Shown here: piece by piece, positions 2,384-21,980 of the stretch
How the letters are laid out: each line of letters opens with the position of its first letter
Numbering within the stretch: the stretch's first letter is position 1
DNA from: Saccoglossus kowalevskii
Taxonomy: Eukaryota > Hemichordata > Enteropneusta > Harrimaniidae
Reading direction: 5' to 3'
DNA length: 21,980 bases
Assembly (NCBI RefSeq): GCF_000003605.2
Contig: NW_003105147.1
Coordinates: 11,320 to 33,299 of the forward strand
The notes under the pieces: model-generated
What the model was told of the DNA's origin: nothing
The model's input: only the letters and a program-made list of their open reading frames with translations
Database searches by the model: none
Program-made: the position numbers and the translations under genes

Positions 2384-2426
2384 GAGTTGGCATACACATC
2401 ATAACGAGTCTCCAAACTTTTCAATA
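2384..2426 (+). repeat. Left terminal inverted repeat
   Basis: This 43-bp end runs outward to inward from GAGTTGGCATAC to CTTTTCAATA. It pairs with 3047-3089 with four mismatches. Confidence 0.75.
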
Positions 2427-3046
2427 AATGTTGTTAATATTGGTTCCATAAAGTTGGATGGATTAGTTCAGTGTTTTATCTTGGAGAAAAATAACTCCCA
2501 AAAACACTTGTCTTAGAAAAGTCAAATACACTAGTGTTTTTATATAAAATAAAGGTGTTTTATAACATAATGCACATGTTTTTAATTGCAATTTTAATGA
2601 AAAACGTGAAAGTACTGCAATGTTTACAATGTTGTGGATACAAAACCTCTCTTGGGAAAAATTATCATATTCGGGAGGAGATATTATCAGAGCTCAATAT
2701 AATATTACGATGTATTCATATAAGACAATATAACAATCTTGGTGCATGCTGTAAGTGCGGTCATTTTGATGACGTATGTAGAACAGGTAGAATGAAACAA
2801 ATTACATGAAAAATGAATGAATGAATGATCGCCGATGCACAAATTGACACAGACCATATGAATATAACTTTATCCTTTAAATATTTTTGGGAAGTCTAAT
2901 TATTTTACAGACGTCGGGTTCAAATAATATTGTTATTATTAATTGGAATAATGAAGTAAATTTTCATTGGTGATGTACAAAGAAAGTGGTAAAATATATA
3001 CCTGGAATTTCAAAATACTGATTTACAAATTTATACAATACAAAAT

Positions 3047-3089
3047 TATTGAAAAGTCTGGAGACTCGTTATGGTGCGTATGTCAACTC
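3047..3089 (-). repeat. Right terminal inverted repeat
   Basis: This is the reverse complement of 2384-2426 with four substitutions. It ends ATGTCAACTC at the outer boundary. Confidence 0.75.
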
Positions 3090-3782: not shown

Positions 3783-3965
3783 GGCACAGAATTAGCGACA
3801 GACTGGGGCTGTGTCTAGACGTCACGTCCTTTATCAGGCTAGATCACGTGATACAGTGTTCAACACTATGATAGTTGCCTTATGCATTTCAGGGCCTATT
3901 ACGTGAAATGTAAAAGCTTGTAATTTCATCATAAATCTATGTGTAGTTTAGATAAAATTTATGCT
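3783..3965. repeat. Dispersed segment, third copy of part of the 11-12.8 kb duplication
   Basis: From GCACAGAATTAGCGACAGA through GTGAAATGTAAAAGCTT to AGATAA this segment aligns, in the same orientation, with 11022-11180 and 12017-12180. It is more diverged from those two than they are from each other. It ends where homology to the METTL24-like locus copy begins (about 3970). Confidence 0.65.
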
Positions 3966-4637
3966 ACATTCCAAGAAAACAAAACAGATAACTGACAAAT
4001 AACCGACTGTACAATCGTTCAAAACGAACAAAAAACTAAACAAATGCATTAAAATGCATATTCAGTAACAAATTGAATATTGACCACAGTACACATGAAG
4101 TTACTCAAAAGGTGTTTAACAGACAACTAACATTGATGCTATTTTAGATCAGGTGTGTAGAAGCAATATGATATTTAACCACTAGGGAAAATTAGGGAAT
4201 CAATTTTTTAAGCGAACCGTGTAAAGTCGTGTCGACTAAAGTAAGTACATAGCTGGAGCTGGAAAAAGTAACTTTGGTGAGTTAGAGACCCCTTTTAATG
4301 AGTAAAACAAGGAACCGTGCCATTACAATGAGTCATATGTCAACGAATCACATTTTGACTTGAAGAAAAAAATAGCTAACTCCGGGGCCAAGTAAAAATA
4401 TTCTAAATTGAAAACAAACAACGTGACATACAACAGACTGTAAATGTCGGCAGCAAAGTGGAATAATGCAGTCCATATTTGCAACCAACCCTTTTTATTA
4501 CGAATTCTTATGCGAAAAGTAAATTAGACACTTATAATTTACGTTGAGCAATTTATTTTAATTGTGAGAGTTTTGAATTAATAATTCCGAGACAAATTCA
4601 CAAGTACACCTTATTTATAAGATGTGTCGTAGAACGA

Positions 4638-4782: not shown

Positions 4783-4877
4783 AAATGTAAGTAGTGTGTA
4801 TTTTATGCAGATGAGAACCACAAATGAAATGACAAACATGTCCAGCTGCAACAACGTAATGTAATCTTGTCACTTAC

Positions 4878-5026
4878 ATATATTCTGTTATTATTTGTAG
4901 TTTGGTAGGTATTCCGCACACCGATGACGTTATTGGGTAGTACTGCTTAATACAACATTGTACTGCCTTAAATAAAACATTTATTTCCTATCAGCGTTTA
5001 TGTGCAAAGACCCAAGTATATCGTAT

Positions 5027-5073
<47 letters not shown>

Positions 5074-5456
5074 TATTAATATATATATATATATCATTAT
5101 ATATATATGATACACCAGTATACCAAACGTTATTTTAGTGTAAAAGCAGTAACATATATTTATCTCTGATATCTCACTAAAAACATCGACTCTAAAAATA
5201 AAGGAATGAGTAATTGTAGAATGAGTTATATTTTGAAATGTGATTAAAGTTATAAATCTTGTGTCATATTTCCCATTGTCCCGGGATACCACGCTAAGAC
5301 CTACGATCTTGTGAAGAAAATGTTGCGTGATTATACACAATATGATCGCTTGTGATCTGTGTTTAATACTATACATTTTTGTGTGTTTTAAGTCTAAAAT
5401 TGTGTCCTGTTCTTTTACGAGGATTCGAAATTGCAGTGTAAATGCAGGCTTGTCAT
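4878..5456 (-). pseudogene. METTL24-like 5' gene fragment, broken paralogue
   Basis: This is the minus-strand counterpart of exons 1 and 2 of the METTL24-like gene in copy B. The exon 2 relic (4878-4966) is 89 nt, the same length as in B, and keeps an AG acceptor and a GTAAGT donor. In the frame used by B it hits TAA at its sixth full codon. The exon 1 relic has the ATG conserved at 5454-5456, then runs into TAA after about 13 codons. The position matching B's GTAAGT donor reads ATAATCA. Exon 3 is absent and no exons 4-6 are found further left. I infer a partial duplicate that never encoded the methyltransferase domain or lost it. An alternative frame of exon 2 is open in both copies (CGIPTKLQIIT near its end) but does not fit the flanking phases. 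Confidence 0.6.
5022..5108. repeat. (TTTA)n then (TA)n microsatellite
   Basis: About thirteen tandem TTTA units from about 5022 to 5074 run into an ATATAT tract to about 5108. The TTTA array is missing at the matching place in copy B (about 19400-19425), so it expanded after the duplication. Confidence 0.9.
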
Positions 5457-5457
5457 C

Positions 5458-5461
5458 TTAA
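5458..5461. other. Empty TTAA target site of the copy-B transposon
   Basis: Copy A reads GTCATCTTAAACGTAAAGG. Copy B has the same flanks, GTCATC and GCGTAAAG, separated by a 673-bp element bordered on both sides by TTAA. Confidence 0.8.
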
Positions 5462-6689
5462 ACGTAAAGGATTAAAGTGCAGTGAATGGAAGCCTCTTTT
5501 TATGTCACAATGCCGTGCAAATTTTTTTTAAAGTCCATTACTGTAACAGTACTGTTGGAACCAACAATATTTCTATATCATTGTGTAAGAAACCACTCAG
5601 AAATTAGTGGTCATGTGATAAAAATACAGAGATTGAATAATGAAAGTTATATTGAACTGTGGCGTAAATTTTAGCCTCCGATGCAAATTCTGAATATATA
5701 TATATATACAAAGTCTTTGAAATTACATAGCACACATCTTTTATGGTTTTCGGGTTAACCTAAATACTGATGAATGTAGTAGTAAAATGAAACATTTAAT
5801 TCTTCAGGCAATAATGAATATACAATCCTGCGACATAAACAATATTATATTCATATTAGGAGAAGGTGAGATTCTTAATAGAAATAACTATGATAAGTAG
5901 AATATCCTGAGTCTGAGAACAATTTTCGAATGAACACTGCCCGACAACAGTAAAACAAGCACATAAATTATGAATGTTTTCAAGTAAAACATACACGTAC
6001 AATAAATTAAATGACAAATTGTCTTAATTTACAGTGTCGCCGGAAGACATTCAGCAACAATGTAAGCTGTTTTACAAACACCAGAGACATCAGAAAGATC
6101 ATGCGTATTTTGCAATCGAATCTTGCTTTTGTATAACTATACAATAGTACTACTCGTATTGTTGCTATAATATAAAGGCCTTATATAATTACTCGTATTT
6201 ATGCTGTATTTGTAAGATATGAGAGTATTATTCATATTTTGCTGAAACATCCGAAAACTATACCAGCTTTCATAGGTATAGCAAGCACTTAAACTTCAAT
6301 ATAGATTCCTACACTAAATTAACCAAATTGAGTCTACATCAAGTATTGGCGAGTTGAAACAGATCGTTTGCGTTAAGTTATTTTAAAAGCAATTTTTACT
6401 CTCTTGCTGTACATTAAATCTATCTTTAGGTCCTGTTTATTCATTATCCCATTGCATTTATTAATACTCTTTCACTAAAGCTATGTTAGTGTGCTTTCTA
6501 TGTGACCAGTTTGCTATCGTACCTCTGCATTCATTTAAGAATAGATCAAAGAAAATCCAAAGTAAAAGAGAGATCATTAAGCAACAGAAAACAAATCAAG
6601 CAGAAGGTCGGCATAGCAAAAATGCAGATGTACTCAGTCTTTGAGGTGAACGAAATCCGTCTGCTGTTCAATCAATAAAAGATCAAACC

Positions 6690-10878: not shown

Positions 10879-10906
10879 TATCAGTATGTTCCGAATGTGT
10901 GAATAT

Positions 10907-11870
10907 ACACGTCCAATGTACGAGTGAGCTGATTAACGTATATCTTCGAATATCGGGAGTATACGCGTGCGAATACGCAAATGTACCCGCCGTATGTCAA
11001 CGATTCGGCCCAGTAACCACACTTGCACAGAATTAGGGACAAAGTAGAGGACTAGATCACGAGATACATTTTTCAACAATATAGTGGTAGTTTTGTGCAT
11101 TTCAAAGTATATTTATAGATTTTTCGTGAAATGTAAAAGCTTATAATTCATAATAAATCCACGTATAGTGTAGATAATGTTCACACTGGCATTCAGCAAT
11201 ATAAAGTTAAATCTACAGAATGGATTATTATGCACAGTTTTATCAAGCATATACATATTCTGTTGTTTTTTTATATGCTGTAAATCCAGCAAAATCGATG
11301 CTGTAATAGTTTTGTTTTTACCAAATCTGGACAAAAATAATTTGAAAAAACTTCAGTGCAGTTTGTGTAATGTAATTGTAATAGACATCCAAATTATTAA
11401 TTGTAATGATAAAAGCTTGTGTAGTGAGCTTTCTCACTGTATGTCATGTTTAACATATTTTATGTTGTTAGTGATTGTCAAATGGTTTACTAGGTACCCA
11501 AACATCAGTTGAACGACACAATGCGCGAGCACTGTATGTGTGGGTTCTTTCGGCCAACGATTGTTGTTTGAAATAATATTATTCGCAAAAAAAAATTGAA
11601 ACTAACCTCGCATGATGCGGGTCATAACGTATACGACTAAAATATGGCGATAGACGTACAACATTAGTCGCACAGACACAGGTGTATGGTGGTATTGTAT
11701 ATAATTTAATGTTATCAGAATACAATAATTTGCATGACGCAATACATATGAACGGTAGTAATTTTGAGTGCATGAACGTACTATTATTGTATGAGTACAT
11801 GATTGGCAATGATATATGCAAAAATAACAATACAATAATAATATTAGTGCAAAATTTATCATAATTAGCA
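10907..11870. repeat. Tandem direct duplication, copy 1
   Basis: This unit repeats at 11899-12805. Landmarks: ATTAACGTATATCTTCGAATATCGG (10932 and 11928), GAAATGTAAAAGCTTATAATTCA, and GACGCAATACATATGAACGG. The offset is 995 bp at the left and 959 bp at the right, so copy 2 has net lost 36 bp. Identity looks around 90% by eye. Its open frames (111 codons plus strand, 138 codons minus strand) show no known motif. The minus frame with a hydrophobic VLLFLHI stretch is partly kept in both copies. Confidence 0.85.
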
Positions 11871-11898: not shown

Positions 11899-12805
11899 TA
11901 CACACGTCGAATGTACGAATGAGCTGATTAACGTATATCTTCGAATATCGGGAATATACGCGTGCGAATAAGCAAATGTACCCGCCGTATGTCAACGATT
12001 CGGCTCAGTAACTACACTTGCACAGAATTAGCGACAGAGTAGAAGACTAGATCACGAGATACATTTTTCAACAATATGATGGTAGCTTTGTGCATTTCAA
12101 AGTATATTTATAGATTTTTCGTGAAATGTAAAAGCTTATAATTCATAATAAATCCACGTATAGTGCAGATAATGTTCACACTGGCATTCAGCAATATAAA
12201 GTAAAATCTACAGAATGGATTATTATGCACAATTTTATCAAGCATATAAATATTCTGTTGTTTTTTTTATGTGCTATAAATCCAACATAATCAATGCTGT
12301 ATTATATTTGTTTTTACCAAATCTGTAAAAAAAATTATTTGAATAAACTTCAGTGCAGTTTCTGTAATGTAATTGTAATAAACATCCAAATTATTAATTG
12401 TAATGATAAAAGCTTGTGTAGAGGGCTTTCAAACTATATGTCATGTTTAACATCTTTTCATGTTGTTAGTGATTGTCACATGGTTTGCTAGGTACCCTAA
12501 AATCAGTTGGACGACACAAGGGGCGAGCACTGTACGTGTGGGCTCTTTCGGTCGACGATTGTTCTTTGAAATAATATTATTCGCCAAACAAAATTGAAAC
12601 TAATGCAGCGGGTCATAACTGGTATGGTCAGACACTGGTATGTGGTGGTATTGTATACAATTTGAACTTATCAGAATACAATAAATTACATGACGCAATA
12701 CATATGAACGGTAGTAATTGTGAGTGCATGAACGTTTTATTATAATTGTATGAGTACATGAATGGCAATAATATATGCAGGAATAACAATACAATAATAA
12801 TAAAT
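11899..12805. repeat. Tandem direct duplication, copy 2
   Basis: This is the second copy of the 10907-11870 unit, in the same orientation. About 28 bp at 11871-11898 separate it from copy 1, and weak similarity to copy 1's upstream flank may extend the unit leftward. Most of the length difference lies around 12580-12640. Confidence 0.85.
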
Positions 12806-15469: not shown

Positions 15470-15775
15470 TCAGTCGATATATCTCATATTAATCCAATAC
15501 AATTCAATCCAATTAAGACGCAGTGTCGGATTTACTCCAGCCATTACTTTGTTCTCGTGCCAATGCCAGAGTTTGAACCTATTCAATTCGAAAGCTGTCT
15601 TTATTGCCAGGTAAATGCGTAGAGTGTTCTCCTTGTGATCCAACATTTCAATCTCCGATAGATGAAGCTCAAATGCCACTATTTTGATATCTTTGAGAAT
15701 ATCACTTTTGATTAGTTGATGAAATATATAGTGTTCGCCAAATTCTATGTCGATTTTCAGAATATCGATGCATTT
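15470..15775 (-). CDS. METTL24: METTL24-like exon 6 (terminal)
   Basis: 306 nt entering in phase 0 after CATTCCAATAG and ending at TGA (15470-15472). It encodes IDILKIDIEFGEHYIFHQLI, AFELHLSEIE, FKLWHWHENK and IELYWIN. This is the C-terminal half of the methyltransferase fold with the family's D-x-E pair and WHWH signature. Confidence 0.93.
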   Translation of the reverse strand, partial: KCIDILKIDIEFGEHYIFHQLIKSDILKDIKIVAFELHLSEIEMLDHKENTLRIYLAIKTAFELNRFKLWHWHENKVMAGVNPTLRLNWIELYWINMRYID

Positions 15776-18700
15776 CTATTGGAATGAAGATATAATAAAG
15801 AGTATTTAGCTGGATTATAAACATGTTGTGGAACATGCTACAGTACATCCGAGTTCCAATCCTGCCTGGCGTTGAACAGAAAAATATATTGACCATATCC
15901 TTGGTGAATTTAGCACATACTAGATTGGAGGCCAAGGCAAAGATTAGTTAGCTGACTTGATGCGACTTGGAGGACACAAGGTATCGATGTATTTGTGTTA
16001 GATTGGGGTAAACTTTAACCTGTGCAAAGCTTTCAAAACACGAACGCGAAATTGAACGCGCTATGCTAAAAAAATAAAACTTACTTTTTCATGGTGTAAC
16101 ATTTTTCTAATGAACGATAAACTTCTGACTTTCCAATGTTGTGTTCCTGATACTAGATTGTCTATATTATCGTCATACAAACCGATATTGTAGAACCATA
16201 TACGTTCTGAATATTTAAAATCTACTAATCCAATTCTATGAATAATAATATGTAAAATAAATGTCGTCAATTGATAATTTATAATACTGAACAGAAACCT
16301 GCTTTGAAGCAGTGCAACAAGTAAAGCAAATTATAAAAAAAAAATGTAATTCACTTTTTGCCGAGTGCCCTTCAAATTATCAGTGGCATACATAGAGAAA
16401 GCGTAGGCACTATTTGAACCCCAACCAATTGCAAATTGAACTGATGGGTATATGGTCTACATGTTGATTCTCAAACATGGAATCTAAATATGTATACACG
16501 GACCGTTAGCGACCATTTCTGAACAAAAGCAAATGAATAATTCTTGATGTAGTAAATGATGAGCTTAGCAATAATTTCATATATCTTCACCAAATAATTG
16601 GGGTTATTAATAATATATATATTTAGGCGAGGAAATAACTAGGGACTTAATGCATGTGTAAATCTCTCTGTATGAGTTGCTAATAACTCACAGCAATTGA
16701 ATACATGTTCATGTTTAAAGATTAGTGTCGTTAGCTTGCTGAAATTTTTAAACGAAAACGTAACACTTACGTGGGATCAAAGCTGTATACATTGCATCCA
16801 TATTTAGAAATATCTTCATCAAAAGACCAGTCGTCCCCAATACTAATAAATTATATATATGTATTGTGATGTAAATATACCCTTGCGGTTTACAACTTAA
16901 CATAATACGTGTAGATTGCATAGAAAATGCTACGCCGTTGATCAGTTGTCTGGCTTGGCTTTGTTTTCATAACGATGTTCGCTTTTTGTTATATACAAAT
17001 AAATATGAATATATAATATGGGTATGGGTACACTGATCTCTTCTTGCTGATTGTCAGATCTCGATGTCCTCACGACTTCGAGACGCATTACTCATGAATG
17101 AAATTTGTGAGAATTATGCGAAATGTCTGAGCAATAGAGTTTATTGATATCAATCTTACCAAATGGTGTCAGGGAATATAGAATATAGCTACATGCCCGA
17201 AAGGTATCCAACTTTTAAAATAATTCAGGCACTTTATAAGCCAAAGAACACAACAGAGATGACTGACAAATAACCGACAGTACAATGCCTCAAACGAACG
17301 AAAAGCTGAACAAATGCATAATCAGTAATAAATTCATTATTGACCACGGTATACATGAAGTGACTCAATGTTTTAACAGACAACTAACGTTGATGTTATT
17401 TTAGATCAGATGTGTGGAAGCAATATGATATTTAACCATTACGGAAAATTAGGTAATCAAATGTCAAAGCGTAATGTGTAATAATCGATCGTAATAGATG
17501 TGTCGTCTCAAGTGAAGGCAGTATGTTAACGTAAACGTACATATGACATATGACCGTCAAGAATATAATTGACCACTTGCTTATAGCCACAACATATTGT
17601 ATCGCACTGCTGATTGACAATTGATCGGATGACGTACAGCCGCGTGACCCGGATACGGTGATTGATATCAGAAGTGTGATCACAACATGTGAAGTCATGA
17701 TTGAGGACACGATGTGAGGACAGAAGTCGTGTAACAATGCGCCATGGCATAGTAACAGTTTTGTGTAACAGGCTACATTCCAGTTTCCGCGCGTTTATGC
17801 TTGTGTTATTAAATGGCGAAATCAAGTGAGTAAGACCCATTTTTGATGAGTGAAACACAGCACCATGGCGATGCAATTTGTTGCATATCAACGATTCAAG
17901 TTGTTGATGAAGTAAAAAATAGCTAACCCTGGAATCAAAAAAGCCTGCAACTGACTGGACACGTCGACAGCAATGATGAATATTGTAGTCCATATATGCA
18001 ACTAACCGTTTTTATTACGATTTCGATGCAAAAAGACAATTGAACACTTCTAGATACTTTACGTTGAGCAATTGATTTTAATTGTAAGCGGTTAGAGTTA
18101 ATAATAACGAGAACAAAATGTATAAGTACACCTCATGTTTATGATGGTTCGTGGAACGTAAAGAACAGAGTGAAATGTGGTTGACGTCAAGATAGTGTGA
18201 TATTCGACTGGGTTTGGCTACGACACATTCTCTTTTATCATTGCATGCCTGATGTAGTTACTTCATTTCAAACGATAACACTAAATGACCTACATTTTGT
18301 ACTCCTGATTGATCCTGCACAATTCAAATCCCTGGCGTCACAAAAACGTGCATAATAGTATACCAGTTTGAATTAAAGTTTAGTTCAGTAATTGGGCAGA
18401 ACGACCCATCAACTATCCCGGACACAAGGAACACGTGTTGCCATAGTTTGCAGAAATTAGAATATGATATGGAAGTCTACTGCGTTGCCCTATCTTCCCC
18501 TTCTTATATTCCATTAAGAACACGCTTGACAATATTATAACTGAACTTGTCAATGTAGGTGCATTAACAGTAATTGGAATGGTTCTTTTGTGTTTAGTTA
18601 TACTAACTACCCTTTGTTTAATTCACCATATTAAATGTTAGAGATAAACCATAATGACAGTTTTTGAGAAGACACACGTGTGAGAGAGTGAGAGACTAGC

Positions 18701-19715
18701 AGTAATTAAATAAGCGAACTTATATTTGTACAAGCTCATGTGTGAAATACACCACTTCCTGGTATCAGTGCATAATCCCAACTGAGGTTGTGTTTGAAAT
18801 AATATTGGAGAAACGAAATTAAGATGACAAATGTTCTTTGTATGCATTCATGATCATTATATCCATATTTCACTCACCCTACTGAATAGACCGTACAGTC
18901 ATTTGAATCGATACCAACGTCCATACAAACATTCCAACCACCATCTATATCATCAGGTTGTCCAAATCTTATATCGCCTTTACACTGGTACGTCACATTT
19001 GTAATATAGTACCACAACTGTCCTATAGCTTGCTCAGCTGTGAGGTGGTACATTAAAGCTCCGAGTTCCATTTTATTCACGGGGACTAACCCGAGTGCTT
19101 GTGTCAGTGATTTCTTCTCTATACTTCCGTGTTTCACGGGTGGTTCATTCCACTTTGTATGCTACATAATTCATAACAGGAGTTAAATATTAGTGGTGTG
19201 TAGTATGTGCAGATACTAATAATTTGAAAAAACACAATAAGAACCACAAATGTAATGTCAAATTTAACCAGCTGCTACACCGTAATGTAATTTCGTCACT
19301 TACATATAGTCTGTTATTATTTGTAGTTTGGTAGGTATTCCGCACTGCGATGCTGTTATTGAGTAGTACTGTGTAATACAACATTGCACTGCCTGAAATA
19401 AAACATAACCAATTATTTTTATGTATGATATACCACAAGTTATTTGTAGTGTAAATAACATATATGTGGTTCAAGTATGAGCAACTGCTGAATGCGAGTT
19501 ATATTATGAAATGTGATTATGAACTTTGTGTCATATTTCTCCTCGTCTCACTATACCAAGCTAAAACACCATCTTGTGAAGACAATGTTGTGACATGACT
19601 TACTATATAGTGTTTGTGCTATAAGCCTAAAACATGAGTCGTGCTCCTCGACTGTAGTCCAGAAATTGTAGGGTAAATACAGTCCTGTCGATGACATGGA
19701 TTTTGATGAAGTCAT
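15470..19715 (-). CDS. METTL24: METTL24-like predicted methyltransferase, six exons
   Basis: Joining 19604-19715, 19304-19392, 18878-19161, 16771-16842, 16085-16235 and 15470-15775 (minus strand) gives 1014 nt, 337 residues plus TGA, with every junction in phase. Human METTL24 is about 366 residues. Exon 3 ends CTVYSVG, like the family's 'C.(L/V)YS(F/L)G'. Exon 4 gives DDWSFDED and GCNVYSFDP. Exon 5 gives ERIWFYNIGL. Exon 6 gives IDILKIDIE, AFELHL, LWHWHEN and ELYWIN, all landmarks of METTL24-like proteins. An uncharged stretch at residues about 31-54, spanning exons 1-2, could be a signal anchor, which would make it a single-pass type II protein. By family it is a predicted S-adenosylmethionine-dependent methyltransferase of unknown substrate. 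Introns are 211, 142, 2035, 535 and 309 bp. No stops or frameshifts were seen, so it looks intact. The extreme 5' end is the weakest part. Confidence 0.87.
16085..16235 (-). CDS. METTL24: METTL24-like exon 5
   Basis: 151 nt between ATTATTCATAG and GTAAGT (16079-16084). It encodes SERIWFYNIGLYDDN and then HWKVRSLSFIRKMLHHEK, matching the family's 'R.WF.N.GL ... W..R.L..I...L.H' pattern. Confidence 0.92.
16771..16842 (-). CDS. METTL24: METTL24-like exon 4
   Basis: 72 nt between TTTATTAG and GTAAGT, phases 2 to 2. It encodes IGDDWSFDEDISKYGCNVYS and then FDP. The GC-x-V-x-x-FDP block is the family's cofactor-side strand. The exon is too short to appear as an ORF and was found from its motif. 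Confidence 0.92.
17530..17800. other. Copy-B-specific segment in intron 3
   Basis: Copy A jumps from TGTCGACTAAAGTAAGTACAT (about 4231) to the GGTGAGTTAGAGACCCC region, while B has about 270 extra bases between the matching points. The extra part overlaps a 155-codon minus frame that has no recognisable motif. No inverted ends or target duplication were seen. Confidence 0.4.
18878..19161 (-). CDS. METTL24: METTL24-like exon 3
   Basis: 284 nt, entering in phase 0 and leaving two bases before a GTGAGT donor (18872-18877). It encodes KWNEPPVKHG, LGALMYHLTAEQAIGQLWYY, then QCKGDIRFG, DGGWNVCMD and CTVYSVG. This is the conserved N-terminal block of METTL24-like proteins ('...L..I..TQ..C....G....W.VCLD...C..YS.G'). 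Several cysteines are typical of a lumenal domain. This exon is missing from copy A. Confidence 0.9.
19304..19392 (-). CDS. METTL24: METTL24-like exon 2
   Basis: 89 nt between TTTTATTTCAG and GTAAGT. The frame that fits both neighbours encodes SAMLYYTVLLNNSIAV, then TYQTTNNNRLY. It supplies most of the putative membrane anchor and the start of the stem. Length and splice sites are conserved in copy A. Confidence 0.6.
19604..19715 (-). CDS. METTL24: METTL24-like exon 1 (candidate start exon)
   Basis: From ATG (19713-19715) 37 codons plus one base run to a GTAAGT donor (19598-19603). That phase fits exon 2 exactly. The exon ends DSCFRLIAQTLY, beginning the uncharged segment continued in exon 2. 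The ATG is preceded by TTAAG, which is also a usable AG acceptor. A second in-frame ATG at 19743-19745 lies inside the adjacent transposon end and would add ten residues. The ATG is conserved in copy A but the frame is not. There is no direct family match for this exon. Confidence 0.5.
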
Positions 19716-19720
19716 CTTAA

Positions 19721-20393
19721 GGTAGAGATCCACTTTACCTGACATGTATTTTAATTAGTTAATTAGGCAACCAATATGATCTCCCTTTTCCACAAACTTT
19801 ATATTTTTTTGAAAACTTATTGTATGAATTTTAAAATTGTATAAGTATTTTTTATGGACACTATAGTTTGAAAGATGCACAAAAATGTGTTTTATTTTTG
19901 TCAAAAGTAATTTGGTTTATGGTATATCTGTTTACTATGAAGAAAATTCCGTTTTGAAAACTATCTACCATTTGTCAACTTCGCTGGGCATCAGCTAAAT
20001 TTCACTAATTCAAGTTTATGCGTAAATTAACACCCAGACTAGTTGTCTATACGATTGTCGTAACACTGTTTAACCAAAAACAATGCCCCGACGGCGTTTT
20101 GAAGATAAACACATTGTCAATCATTTGTAAAAATTTTAAAAGAAAAGCGTCTAGGAGCTATTTTTTTTTATATTCTGGGACGTGCACTAAACAGAAGCTG
20201 AGATAATTGCTAATTTGCGTATTTTATAGTTAAGTAAAAATATATGGCGACTTACATCGCCATTGGTTTTAACAGAGTTCCACTAATGATTTTAATTTCA
20301 AATTTTCACAGAATACAGATGTTCATACAATGCCATAAAAAATAAAAAAAGGTGAAATTTTTCACAATTTGCAAAATAAACTGCATCTCTACC
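19721..20393. mobile_element. TTAA-flanked terminal-inverted-repeat element (non-autonomous)
   Basis: 673 bp bordered by TTAA at 19717-19720 and 20394-20397. The ends are inverted repeats: GGTAGAGATCCACTTTA at the left and the reverse complement GGTAGAGATGCAGTTTA at the right, with two mismatches in 17. Copy A at 5458-5461 has a single TTAA with the same flanks, so this is an insertion with a 4-bp TTAA target duplication. TTAA choice is typical of the piggyBac superfamily, but the ends start GGT rather than the usual CC, so that assignment is tentative. It has no transposase. Its left end abuts the METTL24-like exon 1. Confidence 0.82.
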
Positions 20394-21219
20394 TTAAGCG
20401 TAAAGAAAAAGGTGAAGTGGATGGAAGTCCCGTTTATGGTACCATGACGTGTACATTGTTTTTTTAAAGTCGATGTTCGCTCCAAGAATTGATTGGGTAT
20501 CGTTGTGTAACAAATCATTCAAAAATTAGTGGTCATGTGATAAAAATAGTGCAAATAAATAATGAAAGTTAACTATGGTGTTAATTTTAGCGTCCAATGC
20601 AAATTCTGAATATATATGCAAAGTCCGTAAAATTACATAACACACACTATTTGAAGTTTACAGGTAAACCTAAATACTGTAAGTAGTAAAAGGAAACATT
20701 TATTACTTCAAACAATAATGAATATACAAGCCTAGAACTTATTCCTCGGCAAGTTGTTCCCTGGCAACCACAAGAAACACTGTTTAAATAAATTAACGGA
20801 GAAAGTATTGTATTCACGCGTGAAGAATTTGAGATTTATTTTATATATGAATGTGATAAGTAGAATGCACAGCCTGCAAACAATTTTCGAAATAACATTC
20901 AAGAGTAAAACAACGACAGAAATTATCAATGTTTTGAAGTAAAACACACATGTAGCACCAAAAGTAATCAAATTAAATGACAGATTCCAAGACATTCAAC
21001 AACAAATAAGCTGTTTGACAAATGCTAGAGACATCAGCAGAACATGCGTATTTTGCGATCGTATTTTGCTTGCTGAGGATAAATATACGATAGTACTACT
21101 CGTATTTTCTGCTGTATTTATAAAATATGGGAGTATTATTCGCATTTTGCTGAAATATTAAAATATAATGATATTACTCGTATTTTTCGTGTACTATGAA
21201 AATATGATGGTGTCACCCT

Positions 21220-21980
21220 TCCCTCGTCCGCACTGCACACAAGACCTGGCTAGCCACCTGAAAGGGACTGGCAAGGGGAGGGGGTTAACAGAAATTCGTT
21301 AAAACCGTTTTAACCGCAGGGGTGTCCGTATGTGTATCTTTGTTGGTTTCTACGGTATCCAGACAGCACAGCCGCTGCACAAAGGTGATATCCACAGGCA
21401 TGTAGTAAAACAAATATAATCATAAATCAATCTCACAAACAATTTAATTACATCAATGGTTATCTGCATATATCAATATTACATAACACAGAAATAAAAC
21501 ACTAACAAGTATGTTGCTATACAACTTCAGTGCACACGATCACTGTAACTGGCTTAACAATATGAAAACTAGCGTAAACCCTCACTAACAGTAATTTGTT
21601 CTACCGGCCACACTAACGGGTTGTCATCCCCCTAGGCAAAATACAACATCAACTCTTACTAACTAACTGAGCAGTATTTATGCACGGACCACTGTTATCC
21701 CGCTATACAAACTACAATAGACTGTCGATCGCACAAGCCAATCGGTCAACTACTGTACAGCTCAGAACACAATCATGAAAACAAGTATTATATTAAAATG
21801 AAAAACAACATAAACATTGCATCACAATATGTGTAGGAACAATCTATAAACTCCAAGCCTGGTATTCAACAAATTCATAGACTAGTTAAAGCACAAATTC
21901 CATGAAAGAAATACACTGCTATCAAAAACTGAGAAATGTCTATTACTATATACTATGTACAGTAAAAGTACATAGAGAAA
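21220..21980. other. Unclassified sequence beyond the duplication, with a G+C-richer start
   Basis: After GATGGTGTCACCC (about 21207) the sequence changes abruptly. About 180 bp are G+C-richer (GGGACTGGCAAGGGGAGGGG, GGGGTGTCC), followed by AT-rich DNA with many CTAAC and ACTAAC runs. No ORF, inverted end or coding motif was recognised. It may be the edge of a mobile element that continues past the window, but no family can be named. Confidence 0.35.

Follow-up and report, generated by a model that had tools for sequence, protein, structure and literature searches.

A 673-bp TTAA-flanked element, probably of Kolobok type, in the 5' region of a METTL24-like gene, with the empty site preserved in a decayed partial duplicate

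The 21,980-nucleotide stretch of Saccoglossus kowalevskii DNA analyzed here (the window) contained a 673-bp element at positions 19721 to 20393, with one TTAA on each flank (19717 to 19720, beside a proposed ATG, and 20394 to 20397, at the far end), in the 5' region of a METTL24-like gene on the minus strand. The element is fairly probably an ordinary nonautonomous insertion, most likely of the Kolobok type, located either in the first intron of this gene or in the noncoding DNA 5' of it. A short, MITE-like cut-and-paste transposon that targets TTAA would have inserted upstream of the gene or in its first intron, would have been moved by a transposase supplied in trans, and would lie outside the coding exons without a particular role in the gene. 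The insertion is real and the gene is real, and the start codon is unproved. Comparison of the filled site with the empty one gives the exact landing point of a TTAA element in a 5' region.

The element ended in GG...CC and carried terminal inverted repeats (TIRs) at its left (17 bp; 19721 to 19737, plus strand) and right (20377 to 20393, minus strand) ends. These inverted ends, GGTAGAGATCCACTTTA and GGTAGAGATGCAGTTTA, were identical at 15 of 17 positions, with the first 9 perfect. Among TTAA-flanked pairs 100 to 3,000 bases apart, exactly one in the window had its 9 terminal bases identical and 15 or more of 17 positions matching. Some perfect 9-nucleotide pair was found in 35 of 400 windows simulated with a Markov chain, and a looser criterion (15/18) yielded 1 pair in 50 simulated windows. 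A general scan for pairs of target-site duplications (TSDs) and TIRs, with a threshold of 13/14 or better, listed 12 pairs, which were mostly AT rich and three of which derived from an inverted repeat near 2404 to 3070. The 673-bp element, with 12 matches over its first 14 bases, fell short of this threshold and was not listed.

Eleven stop-to-stop open reading frames (ORFs) of at least 28 amino acids lay wholly within the element, the longest comprising 65 amino acids. No transposase was found by a Pfam scan of 4 of these 11 ORFs, for which the sole match was TMEM107 (E = 0.011, below the cut-off). No second copy of the element was found in the window (best other match, E = 0.042), and Rfam gave 0 matches at the gathering threshold. 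Folding of the element as single-stranded DNA was rejected as a feature, being no better than that of shuffled sequences (z = -0.53; 7 of 20 shuffles as good). A 21-base end pattern was run against two viral and prokaryotic collections and matched 0 stretches in viral_contigs and 5 in genome_contigs, in records titled Bacteroidota, Saccharicrinis, Bacteroidales, Bacteroidia, and Bacteroides. These five matches were coincidental, all falling in one frame of a single bacterial protein, which we take to be uvrA. The collections, which cover viruses and prokaryotes, may omit the window's own genome, and the result is therefore uninformative on the family of the element.

Other repeated or mobile sequences were present in the window. 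A 44-bp inverted repeat, 91% alike, at 2384 to 2427 and 3046 to 3089 (arms 618 bp apart) may be another TIR element, for which no clear target duplication was found. A reverse-transcriptase-like fragment at 186 to 401 on the plus strand (RVT_1, E = 0.0021, below the cut-off) is probably a decayed retroelement. A direct duplication (10904 to 11843 and 11899 to 12802) was 87.5% identical, and a block of about 130 bp was common to both duplicates and to 3836 to 3955 (74 to 75%). A tandem repeat at 21134 to 21209 consisted of two copies of a 39-bp unit.

The site before insertion was represented elsewhere in the window, in a region (copy A) similar to the one that carries the element (copy B). The main BLAST blocks paired A 3973 to 4224 with B 17244 to 17481, A 4431 to 4636 with B 17948 to 18158, A 4811 to 4980 with B 19237 to 19406, A 5206 to 5325 with B 19477 to 19590, A 5457 to 5829 with B 20393 to 20733, and A 5843 to 6240 with B 20806 to 21186. 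In copy A, GTCATC-TTAA is followed directly by ACGTAAAG; in copy B, it is followed by the element and then by TTAA-GCGTAAAG. To the left of the insertion site, GTCATCTTAA was common to both copies. In the BLAST comparison of the unaltered window, the right-hand block began a single base away from the TTAA, at B 20393 and A 5457. The more complete A/B alignments excluded the element and thus give no independent test of its edges. The arrangement of the two copies is the pattern of an insertion with TTAA duplication. An earlier reading of the letters alone (the sequence-only reading) had proposed such an insertion with the empty site kept, and this was borne out by the single TTAA in copy A (5458 to 5461) and by the simulations, in which an equally good TTAA-flanked pair occurred in 0 of 400 windows (first-order Markov chain). 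A 24-nucleotide piece at 19690 to 19713, beside GTC repeats and a few bases from the TTAA, was present in copy B only; either A underwent a small deletion here or B a small insertion.

The empty site alone does not tell the direction of the event, and TTAA elements, such as piggyBac, can leave without a footprint, so that a precise excision from copy A would produce the same arrangement as an insertion into copy B. Such an excision is nevertheless very unlikely, since it requires two events rather than one and since the four noncoding A/B blocks were 76 to 79% identical, which indicates an old duplication.

Downstream of the element, five minus-strand exons from 19392 to 15470, bordered by five AG acceptors and four GT donors, could be spliced into a continuous 299-residue frame closed by a stop. 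The first of these (19304 to 19392) is a probable exon with a TTTCAG acceptor, a GTAAGT donor, and an in-frame ATG at 19384; it is followed by METTL24-like coding exons at 18878 to 19161, 16771 to 16842, and 16085 to 16235 and by the last coding exon, with the stop, at 15470 to 15775. The spliced five-exon product matched Methyltransf_22 (PF13383; E = 5e-11; 43.1 bits versus a cut-off of 22.4), a family presumably named METTL24, and the METTL24-like gene is real. The domain is present here as in METTL24-like genes (Methyltransf_22, PF13383); the N-terminal exon, in contrast, lacks confident assignment. The five downstream exons, with their single open frame, support the proposal that the insertion left the gene apparently usable; the start codon is not established. 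Three weak matches were found among solved structures (best E, 0.23), and 7 pattern-matching stretches in viral_contigs included no confirmed METTL24-like relatives. Among the papers listed by literature searches on METTL24 expansion or signal peptide, none was to the point.

Copy A had been described as a paralogous gene, a description that did not survive analysis. It contained a relict of exon 19304-19392 (4878 to 4964, minus strand) with an in-frame stop and AAG in place of CAG at the acceptor, and tblastn with the whole five-exon product found no further METTL24 match in copy A at an E value of <0.1. The last three METTL24-like exons fell outside the A/B copied blocks. Judged by these features, copy A is not a second gene but a partial duplicate that has decayed, and it acts as the witness of the empty site.

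The position of the element relative to the coding start depends on a proposed exon 1 (19604 to 19715, minus strand), which is doubtful. The sequence-only reading had correctly located the TTAA at -5 to -2 of the minus-strand ATG at 19715 to 19713, one base from the TTAA, from which 37 open codons run to a phase-1 donor, ATA/GTAAGT. A scan of 19393 to 21980 for minus-strand ATGs from which the frame stays open as far as a GT[AG]AG[TA] site gave four hits: a single phase-0 case and three nested ones in phase 1. The nested ATGs (19745, 19715, and 19697) share the donor of proposed exon 1, which was the only phase-1 ATG-to-donor candidate in 19393 to 21980 of the window, and by phase and donor this exon is possible. 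If ATG 19715 were the METTL24-like coding start, the abutting element would supply a new 5' untranslated region (UTR) end, and the locus would offer a clear example of a transposon that landed within a few bases of a start codon yet did not destroy the gene. The 37 open codons in phase 1, compatible with the TTTCAG acceptor before 19392, and the A at -3 favor this reading. So does the chance expectation: the two window strands carried 0.14 and 0.09 phase-1 candidates of at least 100 nucleotides per kb, so that about 0.2 to 0.4 would be expected in 19393 to 21980. However, runs of at least 37 open codons were also found at 54 of the 441 minus-strand ATGs in the window, and residues 2 to 9 would be encoded by the 24-nucleotide piece that is absent from copy A. 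METTL24 proteins carry a hydrophobic N-terminal signal or anchor, and no hydrophobic N terminus was found in proposed exon 1 (best 19-residue mean, 0.04).

Comparison of the two copies also weighed against a coding role for proposed exon 1. Its A/B identity was the lowest of six blocks (60/86, with 26 further gapped bases), and its mismatches were spread evenly by codon position (8, 8, and 10). Exon 19304-19392 was the best of the six (80/89), and the noncoding blocks had identities of 59/78, 159/209, 265/334, and 284/373. Identity was higher in exon 19304-19392 than in proposed exon 1 (P = 0.001) or the pooled noncoding blocks (P = 0.005), and proposed exon 1 did not differ from noncoding sequence (60/86 versus 767/994; P = 0.14), all three P values being uncorrected and taking neighboring bases as independent. 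Some 50-base noncoding stretches were on par with exon 19304-19392 (20498 to 20547 at 0.90; 20598 to 20647 and 21098 to 21147 at 0.88), and others fell below proposed exon 1 (20448 to 20497 at 0.62; 20798 to 20847 at 0.60). A/B conservation is therefore a blunt guide to coding, and with copy A decayed, only constraint in copy B is visible in it. Because copy A is decayed and N-terminal exons may be weakly constrained, low identity disfavors proposed exon 1 without excluding it. It is not established that the element landed directly before the true start codon and took the place of the native 5' UTR or polypyrimidine tract, as conservation of proposed exon 1 was not above background, and a coding start at ATG 19715 is considered doubtful.

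Translation may instead start at the in-frame ATG at 19384 within exon 19304-19392, with the preceding sequence forming an untranslated first exon or promoter, a reading that we hold just as tentatively. This ATG is in frame with the METTL24-like exons, and its host exon was the best-conserved block. No signal or anchor sequence would be encoded, however, and the coding frame of this exon is uncertain: two frames run open through it in copy B, and the second, AVQCCI...GIPTKLQIIT, was open in both copies but did not join exon 2 in frame. The strong conservation of the exon may thus reflect something besides METTL24 coding. With this tentative start, the element would lie in noncoding sequence 330 bases upstream, which makes this reading one form of the favored ordinary insertion. 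It is equally possible that translation starts at ATG 19384 or in an exon lying past the element or outside the window. A hydrophobic alternative first exon (ORF 20995 to 20732, minus strand), in which FY-KT-II-V-VLLL was readable in both copies, was rejected; it had no GT[AG]AG[TA] donor, it contained A/B indels of 4 and 2 bases, and its mismatches were even by codon position (17, 22, and 20).

Motifs at the end of the element had been put forward as means by which it could contribute to the transcript. The in-frame upstream ATG (19745 to 19743) was present as described, and its ten extra residues read MSGKVDLYLK. The letters of the donor-like CAG/GTAAAG were likewise present, and its role in splicing is unproved; among matches to CAGGT[AG]A[AG] in the window, it was alone on the minus strand, with 2 on the plus strand, so that the motif is uncommon. 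The acceptor-like CTCTACCTTAAG and CCTTTACGTTTAAG were also found but were unremarkable among AAG sites of the window: the 15 bases before the AAG held 10 pyrimidines in copy B and 11 in copy A, and at least 10 of 15 were found at 53 of 280 minus-strand AAG sites and at least 11 at 19 of 280. Ten ATGs lay inside the element on the strand of the gene, so a read-through transcript would meet many upstream starts. It is highly improbable that METTL24-like transcription or translation starts inside the transposon, whether through the ATG that adds the ten residues or with the element end serving as a splice site.

The terminal bases bear on the superfamily of the element. Kolobok elements have a TTAA target and purine-purine termini (available part of PMC6004289), and 5'-RR...YY-3' ends distinguish Kolobok from piggyBac (PMC9587614, in the portion available). 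Both features were found here, the duplicated TTAA against a single TTAA in copy A and the GG...CC ends, and piggyBac-type terminal bases were not. The ends and the TTAA point more to a nonautonomous Kolobok-type element than to piggyBac, and membership in Kolobok, judged from the element ends alone, is most likely. A piggyBac-superfamily MITE would likewise duplicate TTAA, and PiggyBac types occurred in all genomes of one mollusc survey (PMC10294476, in the part available); the GG...CC ends nevertheless run against the RR...YY contrast drawn in the available text of PMC9587614, and piggyBac membership appears unlikely. In the available part of that survey, Kolobok types were nearly restricted to bivalves, a bias that neither helps nor excludes Kolobok here. 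Among the papers listed by literature searches on TTAA MITEs with molluscs, bivalves, or Sola3, none was to the point.

Among known systems, piggyBac-type MITEs share the TTAA duplication but differ from the GG...CC ends in their terminal bases. The KolobokP solo LTDRs of bivalves and other animals resemble the element in having TIRs (11 to 18 bp) and RR...YY ends and in being gene free and likely mobile, as described in the available part of PMC9587614. They differ in that their TSDs are mainly 3 to 4 or 4 to 5 bp with no strong target preference, whereas the element has a TTAA TSD (one site), and in that the KolobokP family has the structure LTDR-INT-LTDR, whereas the window showed neither an internal region nor a second LTDR (PMC9587614, same portion). 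KolobokP solo LTDRs thus fit the element less well. The T2-MITEs and other nonautonomous Kolobok elements of Xenopus share with it the TTAA target, purine-purine termini, short TIRs, and the absence of a transposase; the element ends in GGTAGAGAT, and T2 has the motif AGGRR (PMC6004289, in the part available). The present evidence points to an ordinary MITE-like insertion.
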